Positions 5,547 to 50,700 of a stretch of 55,576 bases of DNA are shown here, one piece after another. The DNA is from Hyphomicrobiales bacterium (lineage in GTDB: Bacteria; Pseudomonadota; Alphaproteobacteria; Rhizobiales; Aestuariivirgaceae): assembly GCA_016185245.1 (NCBI GenBank), contig JACPNZ010000034.1, positions 1-55,576 on the forward strand. The letters run 5' to 3'. Position 1 is the first letter of the stretch; every line of letters starts with the position of its first letter. The notes beneath the pieces were generated by a model, which saw only the letters and a list, made by a program, of their open reading frames with translations, did no database searches and was not told where the DNA came from. Position numbers and translations under genes: made by a program.

Positions 5547-6915
5547 TTCGCTTTCCCTTCGGCTGGTTCTGTCTTCGGCAATCGTCAGCATCGTGCTGCT
5601 GGTCGCCGCCGCGTTCCTGCTGGCTGGCCTGTTTTCCACAGCGCTTGAGCGGAATTTCGACGCCCGCCTGCGCGCCGTCCTCGACGGCCTCCTGGCCAAT
5701 GTCGATGTCGGCAGCGATGGCTCTCCGGTGCTTTCCCAGCAACTCGCCGACACCCGTTTCAGCCTGCCGCAATCGGGCTGGTACTGGCAGGTCGAGCCCC
5801 CGCCCAACTCGAAACTGAAGGACCTCGCCTCCGAGTCGCTGCTCGAACAGCGGCTGAAGCCCGAGCCCTCGCTGCTCGCCAGCCGCGACAAGAACGGCAT
5901 CGCCACCTTCTACATGTGGGATTCCAGGCAGACCAAGCTCCGGGTCATCGAGCAGGATTTCAAGTTGGCCGGCAGCAGCACCCGGTTCTCTTTCCTGGTG
6001 GCCGGAAATTTCGACGAGCTGCGCGACGAGGTGCAGGCCTTCCGCCACACGCTGTTCACCGTGCTGGCGCTCTTGGGAGCCGGGCTGCTCGCCGCCACCA
6101 TGCTGCAGGTGACCTTTGGCCTGCGGCCGCTTAAGCTCATGCAGCAGCGCCTTTCCGCCATCCGCGAAGGCAAGTCCGACCGCATGGAGGGCGTCTATCC
6201 GTCGGAAATCCAGCCGATCGCCGAAGAGCTTAACCTGCTCATCCAGTCCAACACCGAGATCATCAACCGGGCCCGGACCCAGGTGGGCAATCTCGCCCAC
6301 GCGCTCAAGACCCCGCTCAGCGTCCTCACCAACGAGGCCACCATCCACCACAGCCCGCTGGCCGACAAGGTGACCGAGCAGACCCAGGTGATGCGCGACC
6401 AGGTGAGCCTCTATCTCGACCGGGCGCGGCGCGCCGCCAGGGCCCAGGGCCTCGGTGCCGTGACCGAGGTCAAGCCGGTGCTCGAAGCGCTCGCCCGCAC
6501 GCTCCAACGCATCAACCAGGACCGCGGCATTACGATTGCCGTCGTCTGCGATGACGGGCTGAAGTTCCGCGGCGAGAAGCAGGATCTCGAGGAGATGGCC
6601 GGCAATCTCATGGACAATGCCTGCAAATGGTCGAAGGCCCACGTCGAGGTGGTGGCCGAGACGGTCAAGGGCCAGGCCGCCGCCGCCCGCCCGTGGCTCG
6701 ACGTGCGCGTCGACGACGACGGCCCGGGCCTTCCCGCCGACAAGCGCGCCGAAGCCCTGAAGCGCGGCCGAAGGATCGACGAGTCGAAGCCCGGCTCCGG
6801 CCTCGGCCTCAATATCGTCGCCGAAACCGCCGGCATGTACGGCGGCAAGATCGAACTGGCCGACGCGGAACTGGGTGGCTTGCGGGTACTGCTCAGGCTG
6901 CCGGCGGCGGGGTGA
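5536..6915 (+). CDS. PhoQ-like sensor histidine kinase
   Basis: A 459-residue membrane kinase. The first membrane helix is about residues 10-33, followed by a periplasmic domain to about 170 and a second helix at 172-192. A HAMP-like linker follows, then the H-box GNLAHALKTPLSVL with H255, the N-box DNACKW, and G-boxes VDDDGPGLP and GSGLGLNIV. The HALKTPL version of the H-box is typical of PhoQ-type kinases. Its first codons overlap the regulator gene, so the two are co-translated. It probably phosphorylates the regulator at D51 in response to an envelope signal. Confidence 0.87.
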   Translation: MRANSLSLRLVLSSAIVSIVLLVAAAFLLAGLFSTALERNFDARLRAVLDGLLANVDVGSDGSPVLSQQLADTRFSLPQSGWYWQVEPPPNSKLKDLASESLLEQRLKPEPSLLASRDKNGIATFYMWDSRQTKLRVIEQDFKLAGSSTRFSFLVAGNFDELRDEVQAFRHTLFTVLALLGAGLLAATMLQVTFGLRPLKLMQQRLSAIREGKSDRMEGVYPSEIQPIAEELNLLIQSNTEIINRARTQVGNLAHALKTPLSVLTNEATIHHSPLADKVTEQTQVMRDQVSLYLDRARRAARAQGLGAVTEVKPVLEALARTLQRINQDRGITIAVVCDDGLKFRGEKQDLEEMAGNLMDNACKWSKAHVEVVAETVKGQAAAARPWLDVRVDDDGPGLPADKRAEALKRGRRIDESKPGSGLGLNIVAETAGMYGGKIELADAELGGLRVLLRLPAAG

Positions 6916-6921
6916 GGGGCG

Positions 6922-7419
6922 CTACTTCCTGCAATACTTCGTCACCGGCTCTTGCAGTTTTGGGCGCAGGCGGTCGGAGAGGTCGACCATCTTGCCGATG
7001 AACTTGCCGAGATCGCCGCGCGGGTTCACCTGCAGCTCCTCGATGGTGCAGGTCGAGGCCTGGACCGCGGCCGTGATGTCGAAGGTCTCGGTCAGATTGC
7101 CCTGAAGGTCCGAGCCCTCGGACGAGCTGCAGGTGAGTTCGATCGTCGCGGTGAGCGTCTGGACCGATTGACCGAGGCAGATGCGCAGCGCCTCGAGCCT
7201 GACATCGGCGGTCCGGTCCATGGCGATGTTGATCTTGATGCCAGCCACCTTGAGCTTGCGCTTGAAGCCCTTGCACAGATCCTGCTGGGCGACGAAGGCG
7301 GCGACCTCCGGGCCCTCAGGCAATTTCATTACATCGACACAGGCCTGTTGGGCACGGGCCCATCCACCCCACGCCAAGCCCATCAGCATGACCGGAACGG
7401 CGACCCGAAACTTGTCCAT
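6922..7419 (-). CDS. Secreted six-cysteine protein of unknown function
   Basis: A 165-residue protein with a signal peptide (MDKFRVAVPVMLMGLAWGGWARAQ) and six cysteines in the mature part (ACVDV, DLCKG, RICLG, LTCSS, STCTI, KYCRK), suggesting three disulfides in the periplasm. The ATG at 7419 is preferred because it places the signal peptide at the very N-terminus. It starts 8 bases after the GlxA-type regulator stop, so it is probably co-transcribed. It converges on the PhoQ-like gene with only 6 bases between stops. I do not recognise a family. Confidence 0.65.
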   Translation of the reverse strand: MDKFRVAVPVMLMGLAWGGWARAQQACVDVMKLPEGPEVAAFVAQQDLCKGFKRKLKVAGIKINIAMDRTADVRLEALRICLGQSVQTLTATIELTCSSSEGSDLQGNLTETFDITAAVQASTCTIEELQVNPRGDLGKFIGKMVDLSDRLRPKLQEPVTKYCRK

Positions 7420-7427
7420 GGCGAACC

Positions 7428-8477
7428 TCAACTTGCCGCCGCCTGAATGACCGGAATGCCGCGCTCGCGATAGGGGGTGCGACCATAGAAGGCGCGGTAG
7501 CACTTGGAGAAGTGCGACGGCGAGGAGAAGCCGCAGGCCAGCGCCACGTTAATGACCGACATGTCGGTCTGCAACAGCAGCGAGCGGGCCTTCTTGAGGC
7601 GGAGCTCGAGATAGTAGCGCTTGGGGCTCCTGTCGAGATAGCGCCGGAACAGGCGCTCGAGCTGGCGCGTCGACAGCCCGGCCTGCTTAGCGAGAATGCT
7701 GGGCGAGAGCGGTTCTTCGAGATTTTCCTCCATCTCCTCGATGATGCCGACGAGCTTCGGGTGCCTGGCCCCGATGCGGGCCGGCAGCGACATGCGCTGA
7801 TGCTCGCTGTGATGGCGGATCGGCGAATGCAGCACGGCCTCGGCAACCGCCGAGGCGAGATCCGGCCCGTGCTGGCTGGCGATCAGGGTGAGCATCATGT
7901 CGAGGGCCGTGGTGCCGCCGGCGCTGGTGAAGCGGTCGCGGTCGATCTCGAACAACCCGCCGGTTGCATCGATTTCGGGAAAGGCTTCGGAAAATCCCGG
8001 CAGGTTCTCCCAGTGGATGGTGCAGCGGTAGCCATCGAGTAGCCCGGCCTCGGCGAGCAGATGGGCCCCGGTGCACACCGCACCGATGTCGACGCCGCGG
8101 CGCGCTATCTTGCGGAGCCAGGCGGTCAGCCGCTTGTCGGAATGGCGTTGCACGTTGAGCCCGGCGCAGACGATGACGCTGGCGCCTTCGGGAACCGCCG
8201 AGAGATCGCCGTCGACCATGGCGAGAATGCCGTTCGAGGCGGCGACCGGCTTGCCGTCCGCCGAGTGCATGGTCCATTTGTAGAAGGTCTTTTCCGACAG
8301 CCGGTTGGCGATACGCAGCGGCTCGATCGCCGAGGTGACGGGCATCATGGTGAACTCCGGCACCATGACGAGGGCGAAGTGCTGGGGAAGCTGCTTGGGC
8401 TTGTCGCCGAACATGCGGGAGAACGAACCTCTGCCGGGTTTTTGGACCAGTTTGGCGGGTTTGTCCACCAGCGCCAT
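7428..8477 (-). CDS. GlxA/GbdR-family AraC regulator with DJ-1/PfpI-like domain
   Basis: About 349 residues. The N-terminal half is a DJ-1/PfpI-like ligand-binding domain (ALVMVPEFTMM...AIEPLRIANRL, and GAVCTGAHLLAEAGLLDGYR with the nucleophile-elbow cysteine). The C-terminal 100 residues hold two AraC helix-turn-helix motifs (LAKQAGLSTRQLERLFRRYL and VALACGFSSPSHFSKCYRAF). Pseudomonas GbdR, of this architecture, activates glycine betaine and sarcosine catabolism. Here the gene is divergent from a MetF-like reductase and near soxBDAG, so control of methyl-group catabolism is inferred. Start ATG 8477 gives a normal-length N-terminus; upstream in-frame starts exist. Confidence 0.8.
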   Translation of the reverse strand: MALVDKPAKLVQKPGRGSFSRMFGDKPKQLPQHFALVMVPEFTMMPVTSAIEPLRIANRLSEKTFYKWTMHSADGKPVAASNGILAMVDGDLSAVPEGASVIVCAGLNVQRHSDKRLTAWLRKIARRGVDIGAVCTGAHLLAEAGLLDGYRCTIHWENLPGFSEAFPEIDATGGLFEIDRDRFTSAGGTTALDMMLTLIASQHGPDLASAVAEAVLHSPIRHHSEHQRMSLPARIGARHPKLVGIIEEMEENLEEPLSPSILAKQAGLSTRQLERLFRRYLDRSPKRYYLELRLKKARSLLLQTDMSVINVALACGFSSPSHFSKCYRAFYGRTPYRERGIPVIQAAAS

Positions 8478-10995: not shown

Positions 10996-11598
10996 TTAAA
11001 CCGGTGCTGCCTGCCTGCCGAACAGCCTGATCTTGGCCGGTTCCCGCGCCGTCGCCAGCAGGAACTCCCAGGCATAGTCGGCATAGGAGCGGAAGACGTA
11101 GACGTCGAAGATGTTGTCATCGACGACGTGAAGGAGGGCGGCGATCTCGGCAAAGCGCATGCGGCGCACCGCCCCCGGCCCGTAGGAACCATCGATGAGA
11201 TCGAGCGAGGACCCCTTCATCAGGATTTCGCGCGAGCCTTCGCCCTCGAGGCGAATGACGGCGCGCATGTCGGAGACATCGACGGCGAGCGAGTGAATGC
11301 CGGCCAGCGCCGTCCTGAGAGCTGCGAGGAGTTCGGCGGTCCTTCCACCCGGGCAGAGGATCAGCCACTGGTCGATGGAGAGCCACAGCGCTTTGATATC
11401 GCCCCAGGATACGCTGGTGCGCGGCTGAGTAGGTAGCGCCGCGCCGAGCACGTCCTTCGCCGCCGCCATGAACGCGGCATCGCCCGCGCCCCCGCGCAAA
11501 TCGATCATGCCGCGGCCGGTCATTTCGCGAAGACCGATGGCAAGTCCCTGGGGTGCTGCCACATGGCTAAGCGGGCTTTCGACATGAAGCTCAGACAT
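10996..11598 (-). CDS. soxG: Sarcosine oxidase gamma subunit
   Basis: A 200-residue subunit of heterotetrameric sarcosine oxidase. It is the last gene of a minus-strand soxBDAG operon and overlaps the soxA stop by 8 bases. Family features are the N-terminal SPL motif, the WLSIDQWLILCP segment and the DVSDMRAVIRLEGEGSREIL region, which resembles the GcvT barrel end. In the tetramer it packs against alpha and has a structural role. Length and order match the family. The neighbouring carbohydrate gene converges on it with a 27-base gap and no obvious terminator. Confidence 0.9.
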   Translation of the reverse strand: MSELHVESPLSHVAAPQGLAIGLREMTGRGMIDLRGGAGDAAFMAAAKDVLGAALPTQPRTSVSWGDIKALWLSIDQWLILCPGGRTAELLAALRTALAGIHSLAVDVSDMRAVIRLEGEGSREILMKGSSLDLIDGSYGPGAVRRMRFAEIAALLHVVDDNIFDVYVFRSYADYAWEFLLATAREPAKIRLFGRQAAPV

Positions 11599-37338: not shown

Positions 37339-37405
37339 AATCTATTTTTCCTAAACTCGGTCAACTGACATGTTGCGACCACTGCTGGACACGAGGGAAC
37401 GTGCC

Positions 37406-37912
37406 ATGGAAGGGATCGTCAGGCCGGGCGAATCGGCCGAAAACTTCATTGCTGCCATGGGCTTGGCTGCAACCGGTGTGTCGGTCATAACAACCGAGGG
37501 CGAGGCTGGCCGCCTTGGCCGCACGGTCAGCGCCATATCTTCGGTCTCGGCCGATCCACCCCTCATTCTGGCCTGCGTCAATCGCAAGAGCCCGGCGGTC
37601 GCCGCCCCCGACGCCAACGGCGTCTTCGCCGTGAACCTGCTATCGGCGCATAATCAGCCCTACGCCGAAACCTTCTCGGGCAAGCCGCGCGAAGGCACGC
37701 CCTTCGACTTCGCCAACCATGATTGGGAGACGGGCAGGACCGGCCTTCCCATTGTCACCGATGCCACCGCCGTGTTCGAATGCACCCTCGAGGCCAGCTA
37801 CGACGCCGGTTCGCATCGCATCTTCATCGGCCGCGTGCTGGCCGCCCACAGGGGCTCGGCTGAGCGGCTGGTCTATTGCAGTCGCGCTTTCCGGCGCATC
37901 ACCAACCACTGA
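37406..37912 (+). CDS. Flavin reductase component (HpaC-like)
   Basis: A 168-residue flavin reductase of the HpaC/RutF fold: the FIAAMGLAATGVSVITTEGE start, TVSAISSVSADPPLILACVN, an NLLSAHNQPYAETFSGK loop and the SHRIFIGRVLAA end. It supplies reduced flavin to a partner oxygenase, here the HpaB-like hydroxylase 10 bases downstream. ATG 37406 has a GAGGG ribosome-binding site; ATG 37370 is an alternative. Confidence 0.85.
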   Translation: MEGIVRPGESAENFIAAMGLAATGVSVITTEGEAGRLGRTVSAISSVSADPPLILACVNRKSPAVAAPDANGVFAVNLLSAHNQPYAETFSGKPREGTPFDFANHDWETGRTGLPIVTDATAVFECTLEASYDAGSHRIFIGRVLAAHRGSAERLVYCSRAFRRITNH

Positions 37913-37922
37913 GGAGACGTCC

Positions 37923-39389
37923 ATGATCAGAACCGGCGAGCAATACCGCGAGTCAATCCGCGATGGCCGCGAAGTCTATGTCAACGGCGAGCGAGTGAAG
38001 GATGTGACCCGGCATCCGCAATTCAAACCCCTGGTCGACATCCGTGCCCGCGTCTACGACATGCAGCACGAGGCCGCGACTCGCGACGCCATGACCTACG
38101 AGGAGCATGGCGAGCGCTTCGCCATCGGACTCAAACTGCCCCATGAACAAAGGGACTGGACCGACAAACGCAAGGCCGTCGACCTGGTGATGAACGACAT
38201 CGGCGGGGTCGTCACCCGCGTCGGCGACGAAACCATCGGCGAGATGTGGTCCCTGTGGGACGGCAAGGACATTCTCAACGAGATCGACCCGCGCTTTGCC
38301 CGTAACATCGAGCGCCACATCCACGAGGCGATCAAGCACGATCCCTTCCATGTCTCGGCCAACACCGACCCCAAGGGCGACCGCTCCAAACGGCCCCAGG
38401 ACCAGGACCCCGACATGCTGGTCCATGTGGTGAAGGAAACCGACGCCGGCATCGTCATTCGCGGCGCCAAATACGAAACCGCGGCGGCCTATGCCAACCA
38501 GGCCTTCCTCAAGCCGACCATCGCCAACTGGGGCGATGCCAAACTCTCCGAATATGCCCTGGGCTGCATCGTTCGAATGAATGCGCCGGGTGTGAAGCAC
38601 ATCTGCCGCACCGGCTTCACCGGCCGCGCGCCGGAACGCGATTATCCCCTCTCCAACAAGTTCGACGAGGTCGATACCATCGTCATCCTCGACGATGTGC
38701 TGATCCCCTGGGAGGATGTGCTGTTCTATCAGCACACCAGGGCGGCAGCCTTCATCCGCCAGACGCTCCACCGCTATTCGGCCTTTCCCTTCGTGCAGCG
38801 CACCCTCTCCTATGCCGACCTTCTTATCGGCGCCGCTTTGTGGAACGTCCGGCAGACCGGCCTCGACAAACAGCAGGCAGTGCAGGAAAAGCTTGCCGAT
38901 CTGGTCATCTGGCGCGAGGGCATCAACGCCCACCTGACTGCCTCGATTGCCGCCGGCGAGAAGAGCCCCAACGGACTGCTCATGCCGAACCAGTCGCTGC
39001 TGATGACCGGGCGCTGCCATGCCCTCAACAATCTGCCGAAGATGATGCACATCGCCCGCGAGCTGTGCGGCGGACAGATTTGCGTCACCCCCGATGCGGC
39101 AGTGTTCGAGCATCCCGACACCGCCAAGTGGATGGACAAATACTACACCATCGACGACGAGTGGCAGGCGGACGACCGGCGCAAGCTCCTGGCGCTAGCC
39201 CGCGATCTCCTGAACTCCGATTACGCCGGCCACCGGCTGACTTTCCAGCTCTTCGCCCAGTCGCCGCCCTTCGCCCAGTCGGCCGCCGTCTATCGCTGCT
39301 TCGACTGGGACTCGACCTTGCGTTTCGCCCAGAAGGCGGGTGGAATGTCGGACCGCATCTGGGGCGTCAAGAAGCAGGCTGCCGAATAA
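37923..39389 (+). CDS. HpaB-like flavin-dependent hydroxylase
   Basis: A 488-residue oxygenase of the 4-hydroxyphenylacetate 3-hydroxylase large-component family. Family marks include the N-terminal TGEQYRESIRDGREVYVNGE, IVIRGAKYETAAAYANQAFL, the PWEDVLFYQHT region and the IARELCGGQICVTPDAAVFE end. The adjacent flavin reductase provides FADH2. The family hydroxylates phenols and also oxidises N-heterocycles, so the true substrate is open. Its TAA overlaps an ATG that begins a relic of ridA, so hpaB and ridA were originally coupled. Confidence 0.88.
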   Translation: MIRTGEQYRESIRDGREVYVNGERVKDVTRHPQFKPLVDIRARVYDMQHEAATRDAMTYEEHGERFAIGLKLPHEQRDWTDKRKAVDLVMNDIGGVVTRVGDETIGEMWSLWDGKDILNEIDPRFARNIERHIHEAIKHDPFHVSANTDPKGDRSKRPQDQDPDMLVHVVKETDAGIVIRGAKYETAAAYANQAFLKPTIANWGDAKLSEYALGCIVRMNAPGVKHICRTGFTGRAPERDYPLSNKFDEVDTIVILDDVLIPWEDVLFYQHTRAAAFIRQTLHRYSAFPFVQRTLSYADLLIGAALWNVRQTGLDKQQAVQEKLADLVIWREGINAHLTASIAAGEKSPNGLLMPNQSLLMTGRCHALNNLPKMMHIARELCGGQICVTPDAAVFEHPDTAKWMDKYYTIDDEWQADDRRKLLALARDLLNSDYAGHRLTFQLFAQSPPFAQSAAVYRCFDWDSTLRFAQKAGGMSDRIWGVKKQAAE

Positions 39390-39415
39390 TGACTGCACAC
39401 CAGCGTATCCGTTAG
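39389..39415 (+). other. Relic of the ridA start (8 codons plus stop)
   Basis: ATG at 39389 overlaps the HpaB-like TAA and encodes MTAHQRIR before TAG. The intact ridA at 40753 begins MTAHKRIR; 21 of 24 bases match. This is an orphan duplicate of the ridA 5' end on the other side of the FMO gene. Confidence 0.8.
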
Positions 39416-39446
39416 AGCCCCAAATACCCCAGAGGAAGATCTGCAT

Positions 39447-40721
39447 ATGCCGGTTGAGAAGATTGAAGTACTCGTCGTGGGCGGCGGCCAAGCCGGTCTG
39501 GCGATGAGCGACCATTTGGGCAAGAGCGGTGTGCCTCACCTCGTCCTTGAGCGGAATCGAATTGCCGAACGCTGGCGCTCGGGACGCTGGGATTCGCTGG
39601 TTGCCAACGGTCCAGCCTGGCATGACCGCTATGCGGGCCTGGAGTTCCCCGGTTACAATTCTAACGAATTCGTCCCCAAGGAAAAGATCGCGGACGCTTT
39701 CGTGGCCTTTGCCGAAAAAATAGGGGCTCCCATCCGCTGCGGCGTCGAGGTGAAGTCGGTGCGAAAGAATGCCGGCCGGTCCGGTTTCCGCGTCGAAACT
39801 TCGCAAGGCCTGATCGAAGCCAACTATGTGGTTGCCGCCACCGGGCCGTTTCAGCACCCCATTATCCCGGCGGTTGTTCCCGAAACCGCGGGGATCATGC
39901 AGATTCATTCCAGTAGCTATCGCAATCCGGCGCAATTGCCGGAGGGAGCGGTGCTGGTGGTCGGGGCTGGGTCTTCGGGGGTGCAGATCGCCGATGAGCT
40001 TCTGCAGGCGGGCAGGCCTGTCTATCTCTCGGTTGGACCGCATGACCGCCCGCCGCGCAGGTATCGCGGGCGTGACTTCTGCTGGTGGCTGGGAGTTCTG
40101 GGCAAATGGGATGCTGCGGCGCCAGCGGAAGGAAAGGAACATGTCACGATTGCGGTGAGCGGAGCCGATGGCGGCCTGACGGTCGACTTCCGGAAGCTCG
40201 CCGGACGGGGAATGATGCTGGTTGGCAGGACGGAACGGTTCAAGGACGGCGTGATGTACTTTGCGCCGGATCTTGCGCGCAATATCGAGCAGGGGGACGC
40301 AAACTATTTGTCGGTGTTGAATGAGGCCGACGCATTCATTGCTCGCAATGGCCTCGACCTGCCGGCAGAACCCGAGGCCCACCTGATCGGGCCGGCCCCG
40401 CAGTGCATGACCAATCCCGTTCTCGAATTGGACCTGGCGCAGGCCGGAATAAGTTCGATCATCTGGGCCACCGGCTTTTCCGTCGACTACAGCTGGCTAC
40501 AGGTTGATACATTCGACGCAAGAGGCAGGCCGAAGCACCAGCGGGGCGTTTCAATCGAGCCCGGGATCTATTTTCTCGGCTTGCCCTGGCTGTCGCGAAG
40601 GGGATCATCCTTCATATGGGGAGTCTGGCACGACGCCAAATATCTGGCGGACCATATTGCCACGCAACGCGGCTATATGGCGTACACAGCACCCAACCAG
40701 CCCATGCGAGCAGCCAGATAA
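39447..40721 (+). CDS. Flavin-containing monooxygenase-like FAD/NAD(P) protein (CzcO/FMO type)
   Basis: A 424-residue flavoprotein with two dinucleotide sites, VLVVGGGQAGLAMSDHLG (residues 8-25) and VLVVGAGSSGVQIADELL, plus the conserved ATG-F motif (IIWATGFSVDYSWL). It resembles YdeN/CzcO-type or FMO enzymes that oxidise N- or S-containing substrates. A GAGGAAG ribosome-binding site precedes ATG 39447. Codons are less GC-rich (AATTCTAACGAATTC) than neighbours. It lies between a relic ridA start and the intact ridA, which indicates insertion. Confidence 0.82.
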   Translation: MPVEKIEVLVVGGGQAGLAMSDHLGKSGVPHLVLERNRIAERWRSGRWDSLVANGPAWHDRYAGLEFPGYNSNEFVPKEKIADAFVAFAEKIGAPIRCGVEVKSVRKNAGRSGFRVETSQGLIEANYVVAATGPFQHPIIPAVVPETAGIMQIHSSSYRNPAQLPEGAVLVVGAGSSGVQIADELLQAGRPVYLSVGPHDRPPRRYRGRDFCWWLGVLGKWDAAAPAEGKEHVTIAVSGADGGLTVDFRKLAGRGMMLVGRTERFKDGVMYFAPDLARNIEQGDANYLSVLNEADAFIARNGLDLPAEPEAHLIGPAPQCMTNPVLELDLAQAGISSIIWATGFSVDYSWLQVDTFDARGRPKHQRGVSIEPGIYFLGLPWLSRRGSSFIWGVWHDAKYLADHIATQRGYMAYTAPNQPMRAAR

Positions 40722-40752
40722 CCAGCCTCAACTTCGAAGGACCTAACAGAAA

Positions 40753-41169
40753 ATGACCGCACACAAGCGCATCCGTCCGTTCAACACCAAGGACACCTAT
40801 CCCGAGCAGAAACTCGACAACGATCTCTGCCAGGGCGTGGTGGCCAGGGGCGCCATGGTGTTCCTGCGCGGCCAGGTCGCCCAGGATCTCGACAGCCGCG
40901 AGTCGCTCCATGTCGGCGACGCCGCCGCCCAGACCGCCAAGACCATGGCCAACATCAAGATGCTGATGGAGGAATCCGGCGGGCATATGGATCACATCTG
41001 CCGGATCGTCGTCTATTTGACCGACATCCGCTACCGCCAGGACGTCTATCGCGAGATGGGCAAGTGGCTGAAGGGGGTGTTCCCGTGCTCGACCGGGCTG
41101 GTCATCACCGCCCTTGCGCGGCCCGAATGGATCGTCGAAATTGAGGTGACCGCCGTCATTCCCGATTGA
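40753..41169 (+). CDS. RidA-family imine/enamine deaminase-like protein
   Basis: A 138-residue RidA/YjgF family protein. It has the FLRGQVAQDLD, GGHMDHICRIVVYLTDIRY and TALARPEWIVEIEVTAVI segments, the last with the arginine-plus-acidic pair expected near the ligand site. RidA proteins hydrolyse enamine or imine intermediates, and RutC does so in pyrimidine breakdown after a flavin oxygenase. The same order (reductase, oxygenase, RidA) occurs here. It is 9 bases before the Rieske gene. Confidence 0.85.
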   Translation: MTAHKRIRPFNTKDTYPEQKLDNDLCQGVVARGAMVFLRGQVAQDLDSRESLHVGDAAAQTAKTMANIKMLMEESGGHMDHICRIVVYLTDIRYRQDVYREMGKWLKGVFPCSTGLVITALARPEWIVEIEVTAVIPD

Positions 41170-41178
41170 GGCAAGCCC

Positions 41179-42360
41179 ATGATCCTGAGTGCCCATGCCG
41201 AGGAAATCCTGAAAGGCCTGCACCAGGTCGCCGGGTCGGCCCTGGATGAGGCGTTCACCGTACCGCCGGCGATCTATGGCGATCCGGAAATCGCCCAGCT
41301 TGAAACCGAGCGCATCTTCAGGACCGAATGGCTGTGCCCCGGGCTTGCTGCCGATATTCCAAACCCCGGCGACTACATCACTTGGGAAATTGCCGGCCAG
41401 CCGATCTATGTGATCCGGGGGCAGGACGGGGCGATCCACTCCTACGCCAATGTTTGCCTGCACCGCATGATGACGCTTCTCCGGGATCGCGGCAACTGCA
41501 AGCGCATCATCTGTCCCTATCACGGCTGGACCTATGACACCGAGGGCAAGGTGATCGGCGCCGGCCACATGGGGGGCCGCGATCCGGAATTCGACAAGAA
41601 GGGCTATCGCCTGCCGCAAATCCGAACCGAGATCTGGCAGGGCTGGATCTATGTGACGCTGAACGCCAAGGCGCCCCCGGTTGCTTTGCTTCTGGCCGAG
41701 CTTGAGCCCGAGGTGGGGCGCTACCGGCTCGACAGATATGTGTCCGTCGCCCTGCAGGACCATCTGTGGAACACCAATTGGAAGCTCCTGACCGAGAATT
41801 TCATGGAGGGCTATCACCTGCCGGTGGCTCACCGCGAGACGGTCGGCGCCTGGATGCCGGTCGATTCCGTCAAGTTCCCGGAGAAGGTCTATGAAGCCTT
41901 CACCTGGCAAACCTTCGAGAAGGACGAAACGGCGAAATATGGCCGCGCGCATCCCGACAACAAGCACCTCGAGGGCAAGTGGCGCTACACCACAGTGATG
42001 CCGACGGTATTCCCCACCCACATGTACGTTCTGGCACCGGACCACATGTGGTACCTGTCGCTCAGACCCAAGGACGTCGATCACGTGCATGTGCGTTTCG
42101 GTCTGGCGGTGGCACCCGAAGCCTATGAGGGCCTGGGCGACAAGCGCCAAGAGTGGCTTGAAGCAACGCTCAAATTTTTCGACAAGGTCAATGCCGAGGA
42201 CAAGTTTGTCGTCGAGGGCATCCATCGCGGGTCCAATTCGCCGTTGGCAAGGCCGGGCCCCTTCAGCTGGCTCGAGCGCGAAATTCACGACTTTGCCCGC
42301 TATCTCGACCGGCGCCTCAATAGCGAAGCGAAGGCCGAAGCCAGGATTGCCGCCGAATGA
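41179..42360 (+). CDS. Rieske non-haem iron oxygenase, large subunit
   Basis: A 393-residue oxygenase. The Rieske cluster ligands are C93 and H95 (VCLHRM) and C112 and H115 (CPYHGW). The mononuclear iron site is the NWKLLTENFMEGYHLPVAH stretch, with H213 and H218. Sequence style is that of aromatic-ring or N-methyl-type hydroxylases such as choline or stachydrine monooxygenases, with no fused reductase. No ferredoxin or reductase partner gene is nearby. It overlaps the DUF1028 gene by 4 bases. Confidence 0.87.
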   Translation: MILSAHAEEILKGLHQVAGSALDEAFTVPPAIYGDPEIAQLETERIFRTEWLCPGLAADIPNPGDYITWEIAGQPIYVIRGQDGAIHSYANVCLHRMMTLLRDRGNCKRIICPYHGWTYDTEGKVIGAGHMGGRDPEFDKKGYRLPQIRTEIWQGWIYVTLNAKAPPVALLLAELEPEVGRYRLDRYVSVALQDHLWNTNWKLLTENFMEGYHLPVAHRETVGAWMPVDSVKFPEKVYEAFTWQTFEKDETAKYGRAHPDNKHLEGKWRYTTVMPTVFPTHMYVLAPDHMWYLSLRPKDVDHVHVRFGLAVAPEAYEGLGDKRQEWLEATLKFFDKVNAEDKFVVEGIHRGSNSPLARPGPFSWLEREIHDFARYLDRRLNSEAKAEARIAAE

Positions 42361-43034
42361 CATTCTCCATCGCTGGGCGCTGTGCCAGGTCGGGCGCATT
42401 CGGCGTTGCAATCACCACGTCGTCGATTGCCGTCGGTGCCCGCTGCCCGCATGCCCGCGCCGGCGTGGGAGCGGTCTCGACGCAGAACGTGACCGATCCG
42501 AACCTGGGGCCGATGCTGCTTGATCTGATGGCCCAGGGATCGAGCGCAAGGGATGCAATAGATTCGGTCACCCGGGATCGGCCATTCATCGATTACCGCC
42601 AACTCACGGCGGTGGATCGCAGCGGCAATTCGGCGAGCTGGTCCGGATCGCAAATTCTCGGCACCCACGGCGTATCGGAACAGCGCGACTGTGTGGCGGC
42701 CGGAAATCTCCTCAAGTCGGCGGCACTTCCCAAGGCAATGACCGACACCTTCGCCGCCAATGCCGATCGGCATCTGGCCGAGCGCCTATTGCGGTCGCTT
42801 GAAGCAGGTCTCGCCTCGGGCGGCGAGGAGGGGCCGGTGCATTCGGCTGCTCTCATCGTCCACCACGAGCAGGCCTTTCCACTGGTCAATCTCCGGGTCG
42901 ACTGGGACGATGACGATCCGATTCGCGTGTTGCGCAAGCTATGGGAAGACTACCGGCCCCAGATGGGCGCCTATCTGCAGCGCGCCATCGACCCCACCAA
43001 GGCGCCGAGTTACGGCGTGCCGGGCGATCCTTAA
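42357..43034 (+). CDS. DUF1028 protein, Ntn-hydrolase-like
   Basis: A 225-residue DUF1028 protein. The MTFSIAGRCARSGAFGVAI start, GARCPHARAGVGAVSTQN, and GNLLKSAALPKAMTDTF segments are typical. The family is related to Ntn hydrolases and often sits beside amidohydrolases, but its reaction is not established. Its stop overlaps the convergent M20 peptidase stop by 4 bases. Confidence 0.83.
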   Translation: MTFSIAGRCARSGAFGVAITTSSIAVGARCPHARAGVGAVSTQNVTDPNLGPMLLDLMAQGSSARDAIDSVTRDRPFIDYRQLTAVDRSGNSASWSGSQILGTHGVSEQRDCVAAGNLLKSAALPKAMTDTFAANADRHLAERLLRSLEAGLASGGEEGPVHSAALIVHHEQAFPLVNLRVDWDDDDPIRVLRKLWEDYRPQMGAYLQRAIDPTKAPSYGVPGDP

Positions 43035-47760: not shown

Positions 47761-50700
47761 ATGGCAACCGTAACCCCAACTTCAGGCGTCGAGACCTATG
47801 CAGGTACGGGTGCAGCAGGCGATACATCAAGCGGTGCCGACACCATCAATGCCGCCAGCAACACCGCCAATGTCGGCGACGTCTGGAACGGTGGCACTGG
47901 CACTGACACCATAGTTCTGAGCACCGCTGCCGGCACGACGCTCGACCTGTCGGTGATGACGGTGACCAGCATCGAAGCGATGACCGGCACCGGCAATGCC
48001 GACACGGTCACCATGACCGCCACGCAACTCACGGGGTTTACCTCCGGCGTCAACCTCGGCGGTGGCACGGATACTCTCAACATCGTGGCGAGCGGCAACA
48101 TCTCGGCAAGCACGATTCCCACTCTTACCAGCGTCGAAGTCGGAAATCTCATTGGCACAACCGGAGATGACACAATCACTCTCACTGGTGGTCAACTCGA
48201 TACCATCATCATCGGCACCGGCACCATCAATCTCGGCAATGGCACCGGCGACACCATCAATCTCACCTCGACCTCGGCCGACCTCAACACTCTCGGCGCG
48301 ACCAATGCTTCCATCCAGGGCGTCGAAGCGATTTCATTCGCCACGGCTGGCTCGGGTATCGCGATCAACCTGAGCGGCCAGTCGGAAGCTTTCGCCATCA
48401 CCGGCAGCGGCAGCACCGACACCATTGAAGGCGGCACCGGTGCCGACACCATCAGCGCCGGCGGCGGCAACGACACGATCAACATCGCCAACGGCGAGTT
48501 TGTCGCGGGCGAATCGATCGACGGAGGTACGGGGACCGACAACATCGTCCTGACGACGAGTGGGGCGACCGTCGATTTCTCGGCCGGAACCGTGACCGGC
48601 GTCGAAACTCTCACCGGCAGCGGCAGCGCCGACACCGTCACCATGACCGCCACCCAGTGGTCCGGTTTCACCACCATCGACCTCGGCGGCGGCACCGACA
48701 ACCTGAACGTGGTGGCAAGCGGCAACATTTCGGCCCTGACAACGCCAACCCTCTCCAGCGTCAACAACAGCAGCCTGACCGGTACGACGGGCACCGATAC
48801 CGTCACCCTTACCGGCGCCCAGCTCGATGCCATCATCGCCGGCTCTGGCACCATCAATCTCGGCACCGGCACCGGCGACACCATCAATCTCACCTCGACC
48901 TCGGCCGACCTCAACACTCTCGGCGCGACCAATGCTTCCATCCAGGGCGTCGAAGCGATTTCATTCGCCACGTCTGGCTCGGGTGTTTCGATCAATCTGA
49001 GCGGCCAGACGGAAGCTTTTACCATCACCGGCAGCGGCAGCGCCGACACTATCGAAGGCGGTACCGGTGCCGACACCATCAGCGCCGGCGGCGGCACCGA
49101 CACGATCAACATCGCCAACGGCGAGTTTGTCGCGGGCGAATCGATCGACGGCGGCGCGGGGACCGATAGCATCGTCCTCACGGATAGTCCGGCGACGGTC
49201 GATTTCTCTGTTGGAACCGTTACAGGCGTCGAGACTCTCGCCGGTAGTGGCGGCGCCGACACCGTCACCATGACCGCCACTCAATGGGCCGGTTTCACCA
49301 CCATCGATCTCGGCGGCGGCATCGACAACCTGAACGTGGTGGCAAGCGGCAACATTTCGGCCCTGACAACGCCAACCCTCTCCAGCGTCAACAACAGCAG
49401 CCTGACCGGCACATCGGGCACCGACACGGTGACCCTGACCGGCGCCCAGCTCGACGCCATCATCGCCGGCACCGGCACCATTAATCTCGGTAACGGCACC
49501 GGCGACACCATCAATCTCACCTCGACCTCGGCCGACCTCAACACTCTCGGCGCCACCGATGCCTCCATTCAGGGCGTCGAGGCGATCTCCGCATCGGGAG
49601 CGGCAGCCGGCGTAACCATCACCCTTACCAATCAGACCGAAGGCTTTACCATTACCGGCAGCGCCAATGCCGATACTCTGACCGGCGGTTCCGGCGCCGA
49701 CACGTTTGTGCTCGCCAACGGCGATTTTGCCGCGGGCGAGTCGATCACCGGCAATGGCGGAACCGATATCGTCTCGGTTACCGGTACAGCCAATTTCTCC
49801 GCCGGAACTCTGGCGTCGGTTGAAACCCTGAACGGCTCGACGGGCGACGAAACGGTGACAATGACCGCGGCCCAGTTCGCCAACCTGACGTCGATCGACC
49901 TCGGCGGCGGCACCGACAGCGTTACTGTGACGGCATCCGGCACCCAGGACATGAGTGCTGCGGCTTCCCTGACGGTTTCCAATACCGAATCGTTGACCCT
50001 GCAGGGCTCGGCCGGCGCCGACACCGTCACTCTGACGGCGGCTCAGTGGGCGGCGTTCAACTCGATCGACCTGGCGGGCGGCATCGACACGCTCAACGTG
50101 GTGGCCAGCGGCAACATCTCGGCGCTGGCAACGCCGACGGTTTCCAATGTCGAGACCGGCAACCTCACCGGAACTGGCGGCACCGACACGGTGACACTCT
50201 CGGGCGCCCAGCTCGACGCCATCATTATCGGGTCCGGTACCATCAATCTCGGCGGCGGCACCGACACGATCAATCTCACATCGACCTCCGCCGACCTCAA
50301 CACACTCGGCGCCACCGATGCCTCGATTCAGGGCGTCGAGGCGATTTCCGCATCGGGAGCGGCAGCCGGCGTAACCATCACGCTTTCCAATCAGACCGAA
50401 AGCTTCACCATCACCGGCAGCGCCAATGCCGACACCCTGACCGGCGGCAGCGGTGCCGATACGATCACCGGCGGCGCCGGTGCCGATACCATCAGCGCCG
50501 GCAGCGGCAACGACACCATCAACATCGCCAATGGCGATTTCGCCGCAGGCGAATCGATCGACGGCGGCGCCAATACCACAGTTGACAGCATCGTACTGAC
50601 GACGAGCGGGGCGACCGTCGATTTCTCGGTCGGAACCGTCACCGGCGTCGAAACACTCACCGGTAGCGGTAGCGCCGACACCGTCACCATGACCGCTACT

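Follow-up and report, generated by a model that had tools for sequence, protein, structure and literature searches.

How did a flavin monooxygenase (FMO) gene come to stand between hpaB and ridA, and why does a fragment resembling ridA lie on its far side? The question is raised by a 55,576-nucleotide stretch of DNA (the window, by which the whole stretch is meant), contig C32 (JACPNZ010000034.1) of an Aestuariivirga genome of 3.5 Mb (G000; assembly GCA_016185245.1; congeneric genomes are labelled G001 and so on). In this window, the stop codon of an hpaB-like oxygenase gene is followed by eight codons closed by a stop (the relic), then by the FMO gene, and then by an intact ridA. The eight codons are most plausibly a severed 5′ end, left by an HpaB-type ridA that formerly stood directly behind hpaB. 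We hypothesize that this resident ridA was cut when incoming DNA from a congener, carrying FMO and ridA, recombined with it; taken as a whole, we consider this the best explanation, and a reasonably probable one.

The TAA stop codon of hpaB occupies positions 39387–39389, and its final A doubles as the A of the relic ATG (TAATG overlap). From 39389 the relic reads ATG ACT GCA CAC CAG CGT ATC CGT, then TAG, and the intact ridA begins at 40753 with ATG ACC GCA CAC AAG CGC ATC CGT CCG. The two starts are equal at 21 of 24 bases, the mismatches at bases 6, 13, and 18 amounting to two silent changes and one K/Q replacement. A scan of the whole 55.6 kb window for relic-like sequences, allowing at most 3 mismatches, found two places only, and no match was found in 100 dinucleotide shuffles. 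Sequence and scan thus confirm the original prediction of an eight-codon frame MTAHQRIR after hpaB, with a one-base overlap and a 21/24 match to ridA. Its claim that the FMO is the sole gene between the repeats also holds, as one gene only was found there; the span that it gave to the FMO (39416–40752) contains the gene, although its limits took in the spacers. The relic could not be traced any further: the 34 bases past codon 8 (TAG included) align to ridA codons 9–38 no better than shuffled sequence, 596 of 1000 shuffles scoring as high. As to the source of these 34 bases, the sequences upstream of 11 other FMO genes gave no convincing match (best P 0.055, in G008).

The junction was then compared in two overlapping sets, 80 hpaB loci of named genomes (the best among 240 that were confirmed) and 37 genomes of the genus, 26 of which (G000 included) have a close ridA. 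Among these 26 genus loci, hpaB is directly upstream of ridA, without FMO, in 14 (G018 as seen from the hpaB side; in G030 hpaB is more distant), and an FMO is upstream of ridA in six (G000, G004, G008, G016, G023, G029). The other six present neither gene upstream, and one of them (G024) shows 260 bases only. In the 80 named loci, ridA starts no more than 300 bases from the hpaB stop in 57 and at 300–1500 bases in 4; an FMO lies between in 2, which are the loci of G029 and G004, and 17 show none of these arrangements. hpaB directly 5′ of ridA is thus the common state, as had been supposed. Moreover, the TAATG overlap without FMO, which was expected in relatives if the gene had been added, is present in two congeners: among the 14 FMO-less loci, the hpaB-TAATG-ridA arrangement of G034 and G021 is precisely the one expected from the relic, and in the others 6 to 45 bases are counted from the stop codon, included, to the ridA start. 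Elsewhere in the genus, two short hpaB pieces in different frames were observed in G031 (contig C93, about 11157–11498), where hpaB may be in decay.

The relic is not a scar common to FMO carriers, as it was found in one of the five readable hpaB/FMO joints (G008 being counted on weak evidence). In G004 the joint is TAATG, the FMO start itself overlapping the hpaB stop, and no relic is present; the joints of G023 (TAACCATG) and G029 (TAAGCCGTG) also have no relic, and that of G016 falls beyond contig ends. In G008, whose genome is 66% complete, the FMO is frameshifted and adjoins pepN, and hpaB, dadA, lysR and the flavin reductase gene were not seen; a possible 14-base hpaB tail 5′ of its FMO (P 0.04, 0.06, and 0.28 against three hpaB tails) is a weak indication of the joint, again with no relic. 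Carriers without the relic had been named in the original prediction as speaking against it, and this is partly the case (G004, G023, G029 and, weakly, G008). The G008 locus (L127) also presents a small gene pair at 6861–7499, between the frameshifted FMO and ridA, which constitutes a second insertion at the same place; we take this pair, with its RelE/HigB-like and Xre/HigA-like frames, to be toxin-antitoxin-like.

In a tree of 49 FMO proteins, the five in-locus FMOs form one clade (100/95), inside which the G000 FMO is the first branch (98/89), and they are joined by the stand-alone FMOs of G030, G003, G032, and G011 in a clade supported at 99/97. The inserted gene consequently has kin elsewhere in the genus, the nearest being these stand-alone FMOs of four congeners. 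Absent from this tree are five distant paralogues, the G016 and G028 fragments, one further G009 paralogue, and order-level matches without a given locus (30 loci for 46 genomes). As the in-locus FMOs form one clade, a single FMO entry from an Aestuariivirga lineage fits. The carriers are scattered on the rpoB tree (30 of the 37 genus genomes, G008 and G016 being among those missing), where four changes are needed; three are needed on the ridA tree and on the hpaB tree, which includes some partial rows, and two changes for the locus label sufficed on an earlier 23-row FMO tree that did not yet count G008 as in-locus. gyrB was dropped as a second species marker, the sole match in G000 being below the cut-off. 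One old FMO entry with later losses or exchanges fits these data best.

Other observations bear on the neighbors of the FMO. The window ridA has a match in 25 other genomes of the genus, at 83–97% identity in 24 of them and at 65% in G019. Arrival of the FMO with its own ridA from outside the genus was rejected, as the ridAs found there are 58–79% identical and start otherwise, and the window's is 97% identical to that of an FMO-less congener. The 5′ part of the G000 hpaB is nearest to G017, G001, and G034 and its 3′ part to G034 and G029, which is only suggestive of a mosaic gene, and the hpaB tree groups G000 otherwise (87/98). When the FMO-ridA spacer was compared with 12 spacers, three gave P < 0.05 (G005 0.035, G016 0.045, G025 0.045), two of them from FMO-less loci; its likeness to G016 was dropped as evidence, since the hpaB-ridA spacers of two FMO-less genomes do equally well or better.

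The composition of the FMO gene also sets it apart. Its GC content at third codon positions (GC3) is 0.700, the lowest of the 12 window genes compared (0.738–0.870 in the other 11), and its codon use is the most deviant of the 12. Thus, the deviation from the flanks that the original prediction had announced is found in codon usage, and in total GC the gene (0.611) resembles its neighbors hpaB, ridA, and the Rieske gene (0.609–0.626). Between G000 and G029, G004, and G023, synonymous distances are 1.51, 1.05, and 0.94 for the FMO, 0.87, 1.05, and 0.97 for hpaB, and 0.66, 0.98, and 0.70 for rpoB. The ratio of nonsynonymous to synonymous distance (dN/dS) of the FMO against the three carriers is about 0.1 (0.166/1.51, 0.112/1.05, 0.125/0.94), which shows that the gene is kept by selection.

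From these data we infer the direction of change, the number of entries and the route. Judging by the tree, the FMO would have entered the hpaB-ridA junction once, within Aestuariivirga. For the window's own lineage, the hpaB-side joint would lie inside the resident ridA, after codon 8, and the second joint within, or upstream of, an intact ridA that is likewise HpaB-type, which would give the order hpaB, ridA stub, FMO, ridA. The likeliest route would be recombination with DNA from a related Aestuariivirga that carried FMO and ridA, by homology at the ridA end but without homology at the hpaB end. Outside the genus, 22 ridA starts were inspected near FMOs; none reads MTAHxRIRPF and most begin with MAHT or MVHT, so that the relic and the intact ridA both belong to the HpaB type. 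Among 25 ridA starts from the genus, that of the window being one, the mean pairwise difference is 4.5 bases (26% of the 300 pairs have 3 or fewer), and the relic is equally near to the G029 ridA start and to the window's own (3 differences each). As relic and ridA start differ by 3 bases, whereas the starts of the species differ by 4.5 on average, recombination may have brought two alleles together here, in which case the mismatches date nothing.

The original prediction had instead an FMO that entered at the ridA start and duplicated at least 24 bases, relic and start being copies, and it read the mismatches as those of an event that was not very recent. For such a duplication one ridA allele suffices, the two sequences are both HpaB-type and alike at 21 of 24 bases, and G000, as the first branch of the in-locus clade, could have retained the first scar, which a common ancestor of the remaining carriers would then have lost a single time. 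However, a transposon with target-site duplication should bring a transposase or terminal inverted repeats. The FMO is the only gene between the repeats and a transposase is absent, and a repeat finder run with an exact seed of 7, which does not list the relic pair itself, gave no inverted repeat linking one end to the other. Also, under a simple neutral model, a copy as old as the FMO divergence is expected to show about 10 differences in 24 against the 3 observed, and 3 or fewer has a P of 0.0017 at t = 0.5 (about half the FMO distance) and of 0.044 at t = 0.3, for a relic that was picked because it is recognisable. The relic would so be younger than the divergence of the in-locus FMOs, or constrained, or the two starts would be different alleles. 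We consider the duplication rather unlikely. Insertion of the FMO into a coupled hpaB-ridA operon stands, with the FMO-less junction, the FMO found there in six of 26 loci and its deviant codons in its favor, but the duplication of the start is not shown, as two alleles are possible, and the dating falls if relic and ridA start are separate alleles. Constraint on an old relic, better preserved than neutral decay allows, would suit a functional role in which ribosomes reinitiate at TAATG, translate eight codons and terminate 31 bases upstream of the FMO, so coupling the FMO to hpaB, and the overlap of the G004 FMO start with the hpaB stop points the same way; but the relic is in one genome only, other carriers do without it, and the FMO has its own AGAGGA site, which makes this role improbable. 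Short stop-start overlaps are common in operons, and the likeness of the relic to ridA might be due to chance or to a common start context. This is highly improbable given the shuffles without a match, and it is practically refuted by G034 and G021, as the relic stands where the ridA of relatives starts.

Several observations weigh against recombination with congeneric FMO-ridA DNA. The difference at base 13 is seen in none of the 25 functional starts, and the presence of two of the three differences in the 10 variable columns of the 24 is what chance gives (about 0.37, worked by hand); the pattern of differences does not tell an allele from a copy. Neither a donor nor a second relic was seen in any sampled genome. 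The ridA of G000 is nearest to FMO-less species (G028 97%, G017 and G001 96%) rather than to carriers (G004 93%, G023 92%, G029 91%), so that the donor would be an unsampled one, and the ridA tree leaves G000 unplaced. Finally, the synonymous distance of the FMO (0.94–1.51) is similar to that of hpaB (0.87–1.05) and greater than that of rpoB (0.66–0.98), which speaks for old residence; recent transfer from or among the sampled carriers is not supported.

Stub and ridA start also constitute a direct repeat, and recombination between them would excise the FMO and restore hpaB-TAATG-ridA as in G034. This FMO-less genome is sister to the carrier G029 in the rpoB and hpaB trees. We give such excision a slim chance; if it occurred, the FMO would be an optional gene that comes and goes without transposon or integrase, and the stub would mark its point of entry and exit.

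Recombination between the resident ridA and congeneric DNA, which we prefer, would resemble homology-facilitated illegitimate recombination (HFIR), in which one joint is homologous and the other is not, and a cut resident gene stands beside incoming DNA (PMC3240628). The HFIR events described there generally come with a deletion of similar size and mostly 3–10 bp of micro-homology at the joint (PMC3240628). An HFIR-akin mechanism is proposed for the effector modules of Vibrio cholerae, where a new module comes in and old remnants (displaced effector modules, orphan immunity genes) are kept alongside (PMC5361080). This is similar to the window, except that the former are effector-immunity modules and the latter is a metabolic operon with an eight-codon stub. 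Also, gain of a gene inside an existing operon would be the rarer kind of operon change: one survey of haloarchaeal operon-like structures counted 86 internal insertions among 946 clear single changes (PMC7760734). Those insertions were inferred from gene content, whereas the joint in the window is marked by a sequence scar. Gene gain by an operon is here a known, ordinary process, of which this locus is a clear but modest example: the joint is readable base by base, the older junction is present in congeners, and the added gene's nearest kin can be seen among congeners. To the first reading, our comparisons add the single in-locus clade with its kin in the genus, the lack of the relic in other carriers and a regular partnership of FMO and RidA.

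This partnership appeared in a search of 397 genomes of the order, 46 of which had a strong FMO match (E 1e-150 or better). In 28 FMO loci outside the genus, with flanks inspected up to 1.5 kb, ridA is directly downstream in 18, within about 220 bases of the FMO match, DUF1028 comes next in 16 of these, and no hpaB was found. The FMO is thus a regular ridA neighbor outside the genus and no stranger to RidA. The recurrent FMO-RidA-DUF1028 group (L248–L275, L277, L278) occurs in Hyphomicrobiales and also on two plasmids from outside that order, in some cases with an M20 peptidase or LysR gene. For example, a Streptomyces plasmid has FMO, RidA, DUF1028, and M20 peptidase, in that order, and a Paracoccus plasmid has the order FMO-RidA-DUF1028 likewise, and in Acetobacter an aldehyde dehydrogenase lies between FMO and RidA. 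These groups share with the window the type of FMO (66–76% identity in the fetched loci), followed by RidA and usually DUF1028. They differ from it in that no hpaB stands in the stretches seen and RidA starts with MAHT, MVHT, etc., whereas the window FMO lies between hpaB and an HpaB-type ridA.

Gene order suggests that a single RidA-DUF1028 pathway is served by two oxygenases, one being HpaB with its reductase and the other, probably, the FMO. The original prediction saw in the FMO a new oxidation step; it could equally be an alternative oxygenase acting in that pathway, because the same kind of FMO regularly adjoins ridA elsewhere. One operon unites HpaB with its reductase and a single-gene FMO, each found beside RidA elsewhere, which points to exchangeable oxygenases in one pathway. 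In the library searched, no paper combined DUF1028 and RidA, and no pathway emerged from the papers listed for HpaB/RidA/Rieske, pyrrole-2-carboxylate with monooxygenase, Aestuariivirga, and the evolution of operons by insertion. The features of the locus are listed in Table 1.

TABLE 1. Features of the hpaB-ridA locus, with positions in the window.
Feature	Position	Strand	Evidence
Flavin reductase (Flavin_Reduct; RutF/HpaC-like, below NCBIfam cut-offs)	37370..37912	+	Pfam PF01613 4.1e-38; NCBIfam RutF 115 of 254.75 bits
hpaB-like oxygenase gene, two-component flavin monooxygenase	37923..39389	+	Pfam HpaB_N and HpaB domains; NCBIfam HpaB-1 (TIGR02309, 4-hydroxyphenylacetate 3-monooxygenase) 227.3 bits, cut-off 480.2
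Relic, putative first eight codons of an HpaB-type ridA (MTAHQRIR)	39389..39412	+	21/24 bases equal to 40753–40776; 0 matches in 100 shuffles
In-frame TAG closing the relic frame	39413..39415	+	Sequence
Spacer 5′ of the FMO with Shine-Dalgarno-like AGAGGA (by eye); similarity to ridA not found	39416..39446	+	Sequence; alignment against shuffles
Flavin monooxygenase (FMO), added gene, open, 424 aa	39447..40721	+	Near TIGR04046 (MSMEG_0569 family oxidoreductase), 367.4 bits, below the cut-off of 498.35; in-locus clade; dN << dS
FMO-ridA spacer, 31 bases	40722..40752	+	No informative likeness to spacers of relatives
Intact ridA, HpaB-type (MTAHKRIRPFNTK...)	40753..41169	+	Pfam PF01042 2.2e-15
Rieske-type oxygenase alpha subunit, variably present in congeners	41179..42360	+	Pfam
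DUF1028 protein	42357..43034	+	Pfam PF06267 1.3e-65

Downstream of ridA, the Rieske gene that precedes DUF1028 varies among congeners and is absent 3′ of ridA in G004, G029, and G021. Farther along the window, at about 47800–50700, long, repetitive Val/Pro-rich frames are present on both strands; they may be misframed readings of a gene for a repetitive surface protein.

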